NCBI GenBank assembly: GCA_013289765.1
Contig: JABCZI010000001.1
Location: 62,001 to 126,000, forward strand
Source: Acidobacteriota bacterium
GTDB taxonomy: Bacteria > Acidobacteriota > Terriglobia > Terriglobales > Acidobacteriaceae
DNA: 64,000 nt
Reading direction: 5' to 3'
Shown here: piece after piece, positions 1,038-25,755 of the stretch
How positions within the stretch are numbered: the stretch's first letter is position 1
Layout of the letters: every line of letters starts with the position of its first letter
Position numbers and translations under genes: made by a program
Notes under the pieces: generated by a model
Databases searched by the model: none
Told to the model about the DNA's origin: nothing
The model's input: the letters and a program-made list of their open reading frames with translations, nothing else

Positions 1038-1222
1038 AAGCCCCGGGGTCATCACTCCCGAGGCTATGCACTAAACCAGTTGAGTACAACACGGTCCGTC
1101 AAACCAGTTTTATGGTTACGCGATTCGATGCTGATGTCAATATTTATTTAATGAGTGGCCGTACAGAAGGCGGCAGAGTCGAACTGCAATGGCTGATGAG
1201 CCACTCATTGGTTTGACGGACC
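1038..1222. repeat. Intergenic nested inverted repeat (broken 23-bp palindrome arm)
   Basis: This lies in the 435-bp gap between the XdhC-like gene and the dehydrogenase. The contiguous arm at 1200-1222 is the reverse complement of two separate pieces: GGTCCGTCAAACC at 1093-1105 and AATGAGTGGC at 1150-1159, both perfect. The two pieces are split by 44 bp (1106-1149). A small hairpin (GCCCCGGG / CCCGAGGC, one mismatch) sits at 1038-1064. No coding potential was recognised. It may be a decayed mobile-element end, a structured RNA or a terminator region. Confidence 0.6.
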
Positions 1223-1400
1223 AAGTCCAGTACCCACTGGCAACGCCTTCTAAAGCCTAGCCCGCCAACAGAATCCTACTCTGGAAATTGACCATAGCGA
1301 ACGATCTGGCGCAAGAAATCTGATTCAACATTCCGAATTGGGAATTCCCAATCTTCATAAGTATGCTTATGACAGCGCCCGAGTTTAGAGGAGAACGCGT

Positions 1401-22362: not shown

Positions 22363-23304
22363 TTACGGTTGCTGCGGGACGGCCAGGCCGCGGCCATAGA
22401 CGGCTTCCAGGATTTTATCGCCGCCCCGCTTGAGAAGAGTTTCGCCGACGGCATTGCCGAGCGCTTCAGGATCGATGAGATTGCCGTCGCGTGATTCGCG
22501 GAGGAGCGTTGAGCCGTCGGGATCAGCGACAACCGCGTCGAGATGCAGTTTGCCATTGCGGATTTCCGCAAATGCGCCGATGGGGACCTGGCAGCCTCCA
22601 CCGAGGCGGTTAAGCAGAGCGCGCTCGCAGGTGGTGGCGGCGCGGGCGGCGGGGTCGTTTAGAAATTCCAGGTGCTGTCTGGTGGCCGAGTCGCCTTCGC
22701 GTATTTCAATGCCGAGCGCACCTTGTCCAGCAGCCGGGCACATGATTTCGGCGGGGATGATTTGCTTCATCAGTTCTGTTTTGCCCAGCCGCGTCAGCCC
22801 GGCCGCGGCGAGAATGATTGCGTCGTATTCCCCTTGTTCGAGTTTGCGCAGACGCGTATCGACGTTGCCGCGCAGAGGATGAATGTCGAGATCGGGACGA
22901 ATCGCTGTCAGTTGCGCCTGGCGGCGCAGGCTGGATGTGCCCACGCGCGCGTGTTGCGGCAAGTCTTCGATTTTATAATAAAGCGGCGAGCAGAAGGCGT
23001 CGCGCGCGTCTTGCCTTTCCGTGATAGCGGCGATTTCAAATCCCGGAGGAAGTTCGGTGGGCAGGTCTTTCAACGAGTGGACGGCGAGATCGACGCGTCC
23101 AGCGGCGAGGGCCTCTTCGATCTCTTTGGTAAACATGCCCTTGGTGCCGACCTTGGCGAGGGCAACGTCCGTAATCTTGTCGCCGGTGGTGTGAATGATT
23201 TCAATTTCGACTTCGTGTCCGCGTGCACGCAAAAGCGCGGAGATGTGATTCGCCTGCCAGAGGGCGAGTTGCGAACCGCGAGAGCCGATGCGGAGTTTAG
23301 ACAT
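22363..23304 (-). CDS. hemC: Hydroxymethylbilane synthase (porphobilinogen deaminase)
   Basis: 313 residues. Polymerises four porphobilinogens to hydroxymethylbilane. Key sites: N-terminal [16 protein letters not shown], the conserved [11 protein letters not shown] with catalytic-site Asp, RRQAQL arginines, and the dipyrromethane-cofactor cysteine in GGGCQVPIG near 243. ATG 23304 has no Shine-Dalgarno sequence, and the 37 bases before it come straight out of an intrinsic terminator (23341-23364). Expression therefore seems to need read-through of the upstream leader, or an unusual start. A truncated divergent copy of its first 31 codons lies at 23687-23782. Confidence 0.95.
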
Positions 23305-23324
23305 GGTAGACGATCCGGGGAAGG

Positions 23325-23364
23325 ATACCGCACAAAAGCAAAAGGCGGCTGGTTGGGCCGCCTT
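23325..23364 (-). terminator. Intrinsic terminator immediately in front of hemC
   Basis: On the minus strand AAGGCGGC and GCCGCCTT form a perfect 8-bp stem with a 7-base loop (plus-strand 23342-23364), followed by TTTTGCTTTTGTG. It is oriented to stop transcription heading into hemC, whose ATG is only 37 bases further on. This placement is typical of leader attenuators. Confidence 0.75.
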
Positions 23365-23578
23365 GAAAAACTGATACTGAACCGCGCTTGAGAACCAATT
23401 TAAGAGTACCTTCTGACGAAGGGATCGTCAAGAACCATTCGCGGGTTAAGCAGGTTTTAACGTCCCATGGGTCGCGCAAGGCGGCGGAGAGTAAGGGATT
23501 GGAACCCCTCGCGGCTGCGAACAGCCGCGACCCACGGTTCTCAAGCGCGGCCCGGTACCCACACTGGTAGTACTCTCC
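23341..23578 (-). ncRNA. Candidate structured leader RNA (tRNA-like domain plus attenuator) of hemC
   Basis: The domain at 23486-23578 is closed by an 8-bp helix GGAGAGTA/TACTCTCC. Inside are an 8-bp helix CGCGGCTG/CAGCCGCG with a TTCG loop (plus-strand 23510-23529) and a T-arm-like AGGGG-TTCCAAT-CCCTT (23493-23509). This resembles a class II tRNA (long variable arm), but the D- and anticodon-arm regions do not fold well. Next to the domain, GCCGCCTT (plus-strand 23478-23485 reversed) repeats the 3' arm of the hemC terminator and could pair with its 5' arm. A 15-base segment of the domain (23536-23550) is also perfectly complementary to 23382-23396, just before the terminator. A degenerate tRNA gene is the main alternative. 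Confidence 0.5.
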
Positions 23579-23686
23579 GAAGCCCCACTTGAGCAAGGTC
23601 AGCATACTACGGTCACGAAAGCATATCTTTCGGATTCGTTTGGAGCGTAAACAATTCCGTTCCAATATGGGCAAAAGCATTAGTGT

Positions 23687-23782
23687 CTACTCGTGGGCAC
23701 GCGCGCACAGCAGCGCGGAGATGTGGTTGGCTTGCCAGAGTGCAAGCTGCGAGCCTCGGGAGTCGATGCGGAGCTTGGTTCG
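23687..23782 (-). pseudogene. Truncated remnant of a second, divergent hemC
   Basis: Minus-strand translation reads [20 protein letters not shown] and then [10 protein letters not shown] followed by TAG at 23687-23689. This matches residues 2-31 of the intact HemC downstream almost residue for residue. At the DNA level the two copies differ mainly at third codon positions, which indicates long separate evolution under selection before truncation, not a recent local duplication. The start codon is not preserved (CGA at the aligned position). Confidence 0.82.
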
Positions 23783-23808
23783 AATGGCGCAGTTCCTGCG
23801 GGATTGAT

Positions 23809-24018
23809 TCATATAAAGTCCGACTTCTGAAGGACCTCCGCGTTAACCTCGGTCAACTCACCGTCTGAGAATTCGTTTGTAGCCTTGCAGTGTGGGCACA
23901 CGACTTTGGTCACGCGACTGGCGACCGGAAGCTCGATGACTTCCCGGCGCGTGTCCGAACGACGAACCCCAGACATCTCACCACAGGATTTGCATTTCGC
24001 CGCCCAAACTCTTGGCAT
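23809..24018 (-). CDS. Small zinc-ribbon protein
   Basis: 69 residues from ATG 24018 (an earlier ATG lies at 24030). Two CxxC knuckles, CKSC near residue 9 and CPHC near 41, point to a zinc ribbon; the rest is basic and polar ([19 protein letters not shown]). Function unknown. It lies between hemA and hemC on the same strand, in the roughly 1.2-kb segment that interrupts the heme genes. Confidence 0.6.
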
Positions 24019-24061
24019 GATAAGTCCCATCCTCTAGCGCAACGTCACCTAGAAAGTTGCC

Positions 24062-24481
24062 TTATTCTCTCCCCATCCCCGCGCCGTCCTCCTTAACAAC
24101 GTCATCCCATAAGTGATGCCTTGAAATGTATCTTAAAACACGATCGTCAGATTCCCTTTGGAACAGTGTCATCAGATCGATAAATGAACTGTTTATGTGA
24201 ACCGCAGCATCGCCGGCGGTAAAGGCCTCAATGGCCGAACAGTGCGACAGTAGAGTGGCGGTCGCATCAAGCTCTGGGATGGAGTAGTGGGAAAGAGGAG
24301 AAACCCCCTTCGCTCCTCCGGCCAGCCACGCCTTTTGTGCTGCCGCAAGCGAATTACTCTGTTCGTAAGCAGAGTGACACTCCGACTTTGTGGGTTCCGG
24401 CTTTGTGCTGCTTGCCGGATTTTGCGCCGAGGCCATGTTTGACAGGACTATTGCCAGCAGAACTGACGTCGTGGTTTTCAC
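24062..24481 (-). CDS. Secreted protein of unknown function, coupled to hemA
   Basis: 139 residues from GTG 24481, with AAGGA eight bases upstream formed by the end of hemA; only five bases separate it from the hemA stop. Signal peptide MKTTTSVLLAIVLSNMASAQ, then a Ser/Pro-rich linker and a helical domain with two cysteines (SECHSAYEQ and LLSHCSAIEAF) that may be disulfide-bonded. No family recognised. The tight spacing says it is co-translated with hemA. Confidence 0.68.
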   Translation of the reverse strand: MKTTTSVLLAIVLSNMASAQNPASSTKPEPTKSECHSAYEQSNSLAAAQKAWLAGGAKGVSPLSHYSIPELDATATLLSHCSAIEAFTAGDAAVHINSSFIDLMTLFQRESDDRVLRYISRHHLWDDVVKEDGAGMGRE

Positions 24482-24486
24482 GCTCG

Positions 24487-25755
24487 TTATCCTTTTTCTT
24501 TGTCGTGCAGATTAAACAACCGCCGCACCACATCGATCACAGTGGTCGCCTCGGCCTCGCGGGCTGCGGTTTTCAGCGTGGTGATGGGAGTGTGCATGAC
24601 CTTGTTGATGATGCCGCGAGTCAGGGCTTCGACGGCCATTTCCTGGTCTGGAGTCAGCGGGCCCATGCGGCTGCGTACACGATCAATTTCTGCCTGGCGG
24701 ATGGTTTCGAGATGATCCTGCAGCGAGACAATGGTAGGCACCACGTCGAGCGTGTTCAGTCTGGCTTCGAAGCGCTCGACTTCTGTGGTGATTATTGCTT
24801 CCGCGAGTTCGGCCTCTTTGCGGCGGTCGGCAACGTGGCTGCTGACGGCCTGTTGCAGGTCGTCAATGTCGTAGGCGAAGATGCCGTCGAGCTTTGCCAT
24901 TTCCGGCGAGACGTCGCGAGGGACGGCAATGTCGATGAAGAACATCGGCTTGTTCTTGCGACGGCTGAGGAATTGCTCGCCGTGCTCGCGGCGGAAAATC
25001 GCCTGGGGCGAGCCGGTGGAGGTGATAACGATATCGGCCTTGTCGCAGTTCTCGTACAGATCGTCGAACTTAATCGCCTGACCCTTGAAGCGATGGGCCA
25101 GTCCGACGGCGCGGTCGTAGGTGCGATTAGACACAAAGATTGATTCGCAGCCGTGCGCGACCAGATGACGCGCTGCGAGTTCGCTCATCTTGCCCGCGCC
25201 GACGATAAAAACATTCTTGCCCTGCAAGGTACCGAAAATCTTCTTGGCGAGTTCAACGGCAACCGAGGCGATAGAAACTGAGGAAGATCCTACCGCGGTT
25301 TCGCTGCGTACACGCTTGGCAACAGCGAAGGCACGGGTAAAAAGTTGATCGAGTTGTCCGCGCACCGAGCCCACCGCGCGGGCTGTGGCGTAAGCCTCTT
25401 TTACCTGACCGAGAATTTGCGCTTCGCCAACCACCATTGAATCCAGACTCGAAGCCACACGGAAAAGGTGCCGGACAGCATCTTTCTCGCGGAATTCATA
25501 AAGATGCGCGTCGAGTTCGTCGGCCGTGAGATGAAAATGCGCATGCAGAAAGCCGCGCAGGTCGGCCGAGCCATTCGTGGTATGGGTAATCATTTCCACG
25601 CGATTGCAGGTGGAAATAATCATGCCCTCTTCCACGCCGGGATGGGCCGTGAGTTCGCGGCACGTGTCGGGCAGGCGCGACTCGGGAATCGCCAGGCGCT
25701 CACGCACTTCGAGCGGCGCGCTCTTGTGATTCACGCCAATGAGCTGATATCTCAT
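24487..25755 (-). CDS. hemA: Glutamyl-tRNA reductase
   Basis: 422 residues. First step of C5-type heme synthesis, reducing Glu-tRNA to glutamate-1-semialdehyde. The N-terminal GVNHKSAPLEVRERLA and catalytic-cysteine STCNRVEM are intact. The NADPH domain has VFIVGAGKMSELAARHLV and FVSNRTYDRA, and the dimerisation helix lies near the C terminus. ATG 25755 overlaps the ccsA/hemX stop as ATGA, so the long upstream frame to 25905 is not coding. The reductase shows the organism uses the glutamate pathway. Confidence 0.96.
   Translation of the reverse strand: MRYQLIGVNHKSAPLEVRERLAIPESRLPDTCRELTAHPGVEEGMIISTCNRVEMITHTTNGSADLRGFLHAHFHLTADELDAHLYEFREKDAVRHLFRVASSLDSMVVGEAQILGQVKEAYATARAVGSVRGQLDQLFTRAFAVAKRVRSETAVGSSSVSIASVAVELAKKIFGTLQGKNVFIVGAGKMSELAARHLVAHGCESIFVSNRTYDRAVGLAHRFKGQAIKFDDLYENCDKADIVITSTGSPQAIFRREHGEQFLSRRKNKPMFFIDIAVPRDVSPEMAKLDGIFAYDIDDLQQAVSSHVADRRKEAELAEAIITTEVERFEARLNTLDVVPTIVSLQDHLETIRQAEIDRVRSRMGPLTPDQEMAVEALTRGIINKVMHTPITTLKTAAREAEATTVIDVVRRLFNLHDKEKG

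Follow-up and report, generated by a model that had tools for sequence, protein, structure and literature searches.

A strongly folded stretch of DNA that ends in an intrinsic terminator lies directly in front of hemC in an Acidobacteriota bacterium, and raises the question of what such an arrangement is for. The window analysed here is the whole stretch of 64,000 nt that contains it (assembly GCA_013289765.1, contig JABCZI010000001.1, positions 62,001 to 126,000 of the forward strand). A first-pass annotation had read the locus as a riboswitch or attenuator of the heme pathway, in which alternative pairings in the leader decide read-through into hemC. Comparison with related genomes points elsewhere. 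The locus is probably a module of two RNAs, one of them a potentially mistranslating allo-tRNA and the other an antisense RNA that would silence it.

The domain that had been described upstream of the terminator (23578-23485, minus strand) does fold beyond chance (z -5.43 for the whole stretch, with 0 of 100 shuffles equally good), but its nature had been missed. Judged by its sequence, it is an allo-tRNA-type gene of selenocysteine-like form. In ARAGORN the stretch 23578-23483 (minus) comes out as tRNA-Leu(gag). The best Rfam match of 23485-23578 is tRNA-Sec (RF01852), and at the gathering threshold the whole window yields zero Rfam matches. The gene combines an 8-bp acceptor stem, a selC-like D arm and a 9-bp variable arm, and CCA is not encoded. 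Its acceptor branch has the 12 bp (8 + 4) of allo-tRNAs of the 8/4 type, and the long variable arm (9 bp) goes with non-serine anticodons (gag here and gtc in a second allo-tRNA of the window, both by ARAGORN). G73 is present in both genes. Like tRNA-Sec (selC), module tRNAs have an 8-bp acceptor stem, a 6-bp D stem with a 4-nt loop and a long variable arm; unlike it, they lack an encoded CCA, and control loci with anticodon UCA have no antisense. A tRNA-Sec identity was rejected, since the anticodons are GAG and GTC, not UCA, and the score of 35.7 bits is below the gathering score of 47.

The lowest-energy fold is a four-arm cloverleaf in five of the six orthologous copies at hemC, with an acceptor stem of 8-9 bp, a 6-bp D stem with a 4-nt loop, and a variable arm of 8-9 bp. 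In G028 and G014 this fold has the 8-bp acceptor and 4-bp T stem, plus a possible extra C:G pair outside; in G020, G003 and G009 it has a 6-bp T arm with a 4-nt loop, which is 2.2 kcal/mol better than the 8/4 form. The exception is the window's own copy (G000), whose D stem contains an A:C mismatch that makes the cloverleaf misfold. This copy also has TTCC for TTCG in the T loop, unlike its five relatives, and may therefore be decaying. The weak candidate -10 box of promoter 1, in front of the tRNA, reads TAGTAC in the hemC-locus relatives (3/6 consensus matches). Ordinary tRNA-Leu(GAG) and tRNA-Asp(GTC) genes are both present in the window's genome, so decoding has no need of the modules. The features of the window are collected in Table 1.

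Table 1. Features of the hemC-locus module, its surroundings and the second module, in window coordinates
Feature	Position	Strand	Basis or remark
hemC (porphobilinogen deaminase)	22363..23304	-	Pfam PF01379, PF03900
Predicted antisense RNA, ~61 nt, starting at the first G of GGTTCTCAAGCGCGG and ending in the terminator tail	23336..23396	-	predicted from promoter 2 and terminator
Intrinsic terminator of the antisense RNA	23342..23364	-	AAGGCGGC-CCAACCA-GCCGCCTT, T-rich tail
Antisense to D-stem 3' strand and anticodon arm	23373..23397	-	perfect core 23382-23396; covariation across modules
Promoter 2, TTGACG - 17 nt - TACTCT, expected +1 at 23396	23403..23431	-	comparative box, 8/12 consensus
Trailer, antisense to variable-arm 5' strand	23465..23476	-	inverted repeat I3; p 0.01
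Allo-tRNA gene, anticodon GAG	23485..23578	-	ARAGORN, Rfam, folding, six-copy alignment
5' leader segment CTCAAGTGGGGCTT, imperfect antisense to anticodon arm	23580..23593	-	p 0.007 against shuffles
Candidate promoter 1 -10 (TAGTAT), weak	23604..23609	-	near usual module position; 4/6 matches
Relic copy of hemC 5' end, 78% identical to the functional one	23691..23776	-	blastn
Terminator of second antisense RNA	1039..1065	-
Antisense to anticodon arm of second allo-tRNA, perfect core GGTTTGACGGACC	1088..1106	-	0/200 shuffles as good
Promoter 2 of second module, TTGACA - 16/17 nt - TAACCAT	1112..1140	-	read by eye; absent from the scan pattern's list
Trailer GGCCACTCATT, antisense to variable arm of second allo-tRNA	1150..1160	-
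Second allo-tRNA, anticodon GTC	1164..1251	-	ARAGORN tRNA-Asp(gtc); model R2, 71.5 bits

Downstream of the tRNA, the 15-base perfect complementarity that had been reported between 23382-23396 and 23536-23550 is indeed present. It sits inside a 22-nt arm pair that is 86% paired, its score is reached by 0 of 200 shuffles, and in the six carriers of the full element the antisense is invariant (16/16 columns). The reported terminator also holds: it spans 23364-23342, carries a T-rich tail and lies 37 nt upstream of the ATG at 23304, and it is read here as the end of the antisense RNA. It was right that no normal promoter is recognised between terminator and hemC, but a conserved box lies further upstream (23431-23403, in 6/6 copies). 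This box, promoter 2, has the form TTGAC-N17-TAnnnT, with an invariant TTGAC and a 17-nt spacer in all six hemC-locus copies and a consensus score of 8 or 9 of 12; a strict promoter scan of 22500-25000 found no sigma-70 site. A +1 after a 6-nt discriminator falls on the first G of GGTTCTCAAGCGCGG in 6/6 copies, and the RNA predicted from promoter 2 to terminator is 58-61 nt long in each. In the window's copy, promoter 2 is a sequence match that scores 8/12, and the antisense RNA is predicted from this match together with the terminator. Lastly, an extra GCCGCCTT at 23478-23485 had been proposed as an anti-terminator arm. It exists, but is the acceptor end of the tRNA and occurs in only two of the six carriers, so that it looks like a chance match.

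The full element stands at hemC in 6 of the 45 genomes of the genus, and its exact inverted pair was found in five records of a collection of 84,980 species (three Candidatus Sulfotelmatobacter, two Acidobacteriaceae or Acidobacteria). Besides the antisense, the six-copy alignment is invariant in 88/93 columns of the tRNA, in 5/5 of TTGAC and in 20/26 of the terminator. The drifting parts are invariant at 3/18 (promoter spacer), 6/30 (gap before the -35) and 10/34 columns (stretch after the terminator).

The same module is also found beside unrelated genes. A covariance model of the tRNA alone (R1) and its widened form (R2), both of which exclude the flanks, gave matches in 26 of 45 genus genomes and in 46 of 399 class genomes, the latter including true tRNA-Sec. 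The R2 survey took 76 sources as input; at class level there were 56 matches, of which 23 (L122-L128 and 16 further places), all outside the window's family, lie outside the analysis. For each tRNA, the 160 nt downstream were compared with its own anticodon-arm region and with 200 shuffles. In 56 of the 78 R2 matches examined, this downstream stretch holds an antisense to the tRNA's own arm with a score that 0/200 shuffles reach (55 in another run, as the shuffle test is random and L103 is borderline). By tally, modules passing this test occur in 24 of the 45 genus genomes. None of 43 control loci of ordinary tRNA-Sec and tRNA-Ser type, made up of 30 tRNA-Sec loci and 13 weak R1 matches (L084-L096), carries such an antisense, nor does any of the 31 UCA loci among them; for the nearest control, 7 of 200 shuffles were as good.

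The remaining R2 matches fall into several groups. In four weaker ones (L107, L117, L142, L158) an antisense and a terminator are visible by eye. Among the 63 module-type matches, one tRNA lacks an antisense (L138, with an acceptor mismatch and 193 nt from a contig end), one locus is decaying (L144) and one is cut by an assembly gap (L143). The other 15 matches comprise three tRNA-Sec, two others (L082, L160) and a second allo-tRNA-like group of ten with a TTATAA or TTTATAA loop (L081, L112, L114, L116, L118, L153, L156, L159, L161, L162). None of these 15, the ten loop-group members included, has an antisense that passes the shuffle test; L118 comes closest, equalled by 10 of 200 shuffles. 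The loop of this second group fits the UAU allo-tRNA group of a review, whose allo-tRNA section says that this group was thought to be linked to transposons (PMC7609411).

A sample of the phylum gave matches at E 1e-7 in 3 of 297 genomes, all in the same family. R1 at E 0.05 matched in at least 235 of 250 family genomes; among the matches listed, most are weak (about 33 bits or less), and such weak matches are taken for ordinary tRNAs. A genome search with RF01852 was uninformative as a module finder, as it gave matches in 200 of 200 genomes and in all 14 controls.

The 56 modules share further parts. A trailer directly 3' of the tRNA is antisense to the variable-arm 5' strand in 55, and in 39 the anticodon arm has a further antisense in the short 5' leader (p<0.05 in each case), while a terminator follows the antisense in 53. 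Sequence matches to promoter 2 with a score of at least 9/12 occur in 43 modules, against 2.9% of shuffles, and matches to a promoter 1 -10 box with at least 5/6 identities in 31, against 7.3% of shuffles; the window's hemC copy is below both thresholds (8/12 and 4/6). CCA is encoded after the tRNA in only 2/56 modules, against 43/43 ordinary tRNAs. The discriminator base is other than G in 19/56 module tRNAs, and position 33 is C in 22/56, as called automatically by a procedure that puts the loop in the wrong place for some tRNAs, including those at hemC.

Neighbouring genes vary, and include sigma-70, NtrC-type regulator, gyrA, groEL (chaperonin), xseA, ccmB, xdhC and zinc dehydrogenase genes. 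No family is shared by all modules among the 30 of 93 flanking ORFs scanned. The recurrent families among these 30 (sigma-70 five times, NtrC-type four, DUF6600 three, chaperonin twice) are best explained by one locus that recurs across several species. Mechanical ORF calls, from which the hemC group and the window were excluded, place the nearest downstream ORF convergent to the module in 19 of 48 cases. One chaperonin (Cpn60) locus (L133, in G025) holds two different modules in tandem, at 968-1055 and 1501-1588, about 450 nt apart and behind the chaperonin gene. The window itself has a second, complete module (1164-1251 with 1031-1160), which lies between xdhC and zinc dehydrogenase. Four loci in other species (L141, L143, L151, L152) have the same or nearly the same arm as this GTC module, with flanking ORFs of similar length.

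tRNA and antisense also vary jointly across species. Anticodon arms diverge widely between modules, and the antisense changes along with them. Among 54 distinct arm/antisense pairs, 86.8% of cells are paired, against a mean of 65.4% and a maximum of 69.4% in 1000 permutations, with a register set by the best local pairing, which somewhat favours pairing. Changes on both sides occur at 16 of 17 positions, and exact antisense runs across the anticodon arm are mostly 10-21 nt. The co-change can be followed at single loci. Behind the sigma-70 gene (L073, L146, L147, L136, L080), the tRNA body is nearly fixed while the anticodon arm and antisense change, giving anticodons GCG, GCC and GTC with a matching antisense each time. 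The same is seen between the NtrC-type regulator and the DUF6600 gene (L100, L102, L139); L103 has the same NtrC-type regulator, with its downstream ORF outside the scan. Helix conservation and covariation had been named as a check on the attenuator: the arm/antisense pairing is conserved and covaries, but the GCCGCCTT arm is absent from four of the six carriers.

In the 13 genomes tested that have at least two modules, the cognate duplex was the strongest for 31 of 31 tRNAs. With internal folding ignored, duplex energies ranged from -38.4 to -56.2 kcal/mol for the 31 cognate pairs, and from -20.4 to -39.2 kcal/mol for 48 non-cognate pairs of the same genome. In a swap test, 22 of 24 loci beat all their own shuffles, and for 10 of 22 tRNAs the downstream sequence of other modules, mostly near relatives, did as well as or better than their own.

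Folding predictions suggest what the antisense would do. The tRNA alone is predicted to form its acceptor stem in 54 of 56 modules. In the predicted full-length transcript this stem forms in 0/56; the antisense is there paired to the anticodon region in 56/56. Mutually exclusive pairings thus exist and are conserved, as the first-pass annotation had supposed, but in these models they hit the cloverleaf and not the terminator. Across the six hemC loci, the predicted terminator probability stays at 0.94-0.999 whether one folds the full transcript, the promoter-2 RNA or a state with the cloverleaf enforced (for G000, with the D stem left free).

On the reading preferred here, RNA 1 would be the allo-tRNA, selC-like with anticodon GAG and located between hemA and hemC. 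RNA 2 would be the antisense RNA of ~61 nt, with its own promoter and terminator; its 5' end exactly complements the anticodon arm of RNA 1 and, in part, the D stem. Both RNAs would be made, and RNA 2, or the same segment acting in cis within the full-length transcript, would pair with RNA 1, exclude the cloverleaf and so silence it. Because this pairing is incompatible with the cloverleaf, RNA 2 would most likely keep the allo-tRNA from processing, charging or use in decoding, until RNA 2 was lost or outnumbered. The low promoter scores and the D-stem and T-loop changes of the window's own copy, the swap test and the antisense that G024 retains tell against this reading. The reason for silencing may be that a serine-chargeable tRNA with a leucine anticodon would mistranslate. 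Relatives that insert serine at leucine codons, the ordinary tRNAs of the genome and the usually unencoded CCA suggest that the allo-tRNA is a potentially harmful decoder. The frequent C33 and non-G discriminator argue against efficient decoding, and consequently against a mistranslation poison. The anticodon arm seems to behave as an address that co-evolves with the antisense, rather than as a fixed codon reader. The module may be a toxin-antitoxin pair, a device for controlled mistranslation or a selfish element. A more far-reaching proposal must be regarded as tentative and rather doubtful: that the modules form a new two-RNA class resembling toxin-antitoxin or immunity systems, with a mistranslating tRNA as poison and an anticodon-arm antisense RNA as antidote. 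In such a class, the arm would diversify for mutual specificity, as plasmid incompatibility loops do, and the anticodon would have turned from codon reader into address tag.

How do other explanations compare? The original proposal of a hemC attenuator or riboswitch can point to a terminator 37 nt before the ATG without a recognised promoter in between, to pairings that do exclude each other, and to a genome (G024) that keeps the antisense and terminator before a relocated hemC. It is nevertheless highly improbable: terminator probability is the same in all three predicted states, the extra GCCGCCTT occurs in two of six carriers, and promoter 2 is located 3' of the domain that was supposed to act as sensor. 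Varied neighbours and the 19 of 48 convergent downstream ORFs argue against a heme-pathway riboswitch and, in general, against a leader. The attenuator through GCCGCCTT was rejected; none of the three states folded prevents the terminator, and hem genes are no consistent neighbours. T-box riboswitches, in which a leader RNA reads a tRNA anticodon through a 3-nt specifier before a terminator, are another parallel. The module likewise has a leader-like RNA that reads an anticodon and lies before a terminator, but its exact antisense, mostly 10-21 nt, runs across the arm. A T-box riboswitch proper was rejected, as the Rfam searches gave no T-box match and the antisense spans the whole arm. A T-box-like co-option limited to the hemC clade is unlikely. 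It would have the allo-tRNA bind in trans to positions +1 to +15 of the promoter-2 leader and change hemC expression, which suits the six carriers, where hemC follows promoter 2 and its terminator, and suits G024, which keeps the promoter-2 stretch without hemA. The bound segment, however, ends about 20 nt before the terminator, enforcing the cloverleaf left the terminator unaltered, the generic module needs no downstream gene, and the G024 assembly (77% complete) gave no R2 match.

Two further explanations were weighed. The antisense RNA might be an effector small RNA that acts on mRNAs, with the allo-tRNA as its sponge. The architecture is symmetric in this respect, with a 5' seed, a terminator and its own promoter, but the seed varies from module to module, at a single locus too, which makes conserved mRNA targets unlikely and the explanation as a whole improbable. 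Equally improbable is the view that these inverted copies belong to a mobile element, as ends or hairpins that serve its transposition, and not to a silencing RNA. The distribution is patchy and spread over many loci, a relic of the hemC 5' end lies beside the element, leader and antisense are near direct repeats, and related allo-tRNAs were, according to the review's allo-tRNA section, thought to be tied to transposable elements (PMC7609411). Module L140 has a Y1 (IS200-like) transposase ORF 146 nt upstream, and module L110 has, 26 nt upstream, an IS1/IS240-type match that stays below the cut-off. Transposase domains occur, however, at only 2 of the 30 flanking ORFs scanned, promoter 2 and terminator are conserved in register with the antisense start, and modules keep their locus from species to species even as arm and antisense change together. 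Searches for module 1 in phages and for module 2 in plasmids gave no match, and viral contigs hold no exact match to the 19-nt anticodon arm.

Among known systems, the RNAs of type I and type VIII toxin-antitoxin pairs and plasmid RNAI/RNAII use antisense with loop-specific, diversifying recognition. Antisense recognition in the module is likewise loop-specific and diversifying; unlike these systems, its antisense follows its target on one strand, and that target is a tRNA cloverleaf. As regards a type VIII-like pair, arm and antisense are complementary and covary, and the candidate promoter boxes are sequence matches, to promoter 2 in 43 and to a promoter 1 -10 in 31 of the 56 modules. We know of no earlier dedicated antisense system against a tRNA anticodon arm, of which the module would be the first. 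A 2017 abstract by Mukai et al. reportedly raises the possibility that the allo-tRNAs of Acidobacteria act as suppressors and/or regulatory noncoding RNAs; these authors may therefore have seen part of the arrangement. The allo-tRNA section of a review describes those of Acidobacteria as having an 8-bp acceptor, a 4-bp T stem, a long variable arm and varied non-serine anticodons, including GCG and GUC, all of which the module tRNAs share in kind (PMC7609411). Allo-tRNAs of Silvibacterium put serine at leucine codons in E. coli, according to the same section, and one tested on the leucine codon CUC would match anticodon GAG. The review calls the role of allo-tRNAs 'a bit more speculative', and its allo-tRNA section mentions no downstream promoter, antisense RNA or co-variation. 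Among the papers that searches of an open library listed, PMC7609411 and PMC7590224 included, no title or abstract opening describes antisense partners of allo-tRNAs. CreTA, an RNA toxin with an RNA antitoxin, resembles the module in having two small RNAs and tRNA-related toxicity; as outlined in PMC8501985, CreA is a noncanonical CRISPR guide that represses CreT, whereas the module's partner RNA is directly complementary to the tRNA-like RNA.

Allo-tRNAs serve genetic-code engineering, and a covarying antisense with its own promoter offers a testable answer to the question of their role, namely locked RNA pairs. If this is true, antisense partnering would explain the diversity of anticodons, and the modules would supply natural orthogonal tRNA/antisense pairs. 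It also calls for caution in annotation, where a tRNA finder can list module genes as ordinary tRNA-Leu or tRNA-Asp.

The history of the hemA-hemC junction can be followed in part. Of 23 non-carrier loci examined, 13 have a hemA-like frame that ends, by eye, at or over the hemC start; the rest have other sequence. Upstream of the element, the relic of the hemC 5' end lies within a short, still-open frame. This partial copy is 86 nt long in the window's genome, 41 nt in G020 and split into two fragments in G028; blastn found none in G003, G009, G014 or G024. The relic is a scar either of insertion or of later exchange. A foreign origin of the hemC 5' end found no support, as the relic resembles other species about as closely as the functional copy does (mean 0.82 vs 0.83). 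Two small ORFs between hemA and the element (24062-24481 and 23809-24030) have no Pfam match above cut-off, and are either cargo or decay products of an insertion.

In G024, where hemC is no longer next to hemA, the antisense and terminator stand before hemC without the allo-tRNA (L022, 1400-2300), together with a degenerate -35. The gene that precedes hemC there in place of hemA resembles, by a motif, a uracil-DNA glycosylase. Since the promoter-2 region, antisense and terminator are kept without the tRNA, the stretch could be retained as a hemC promoter. In the carriers, it is the module's place in the hemA-hemC junction that puts hemC downstream of it, and expression of hemC probably depends on read-through or leakage through the module.
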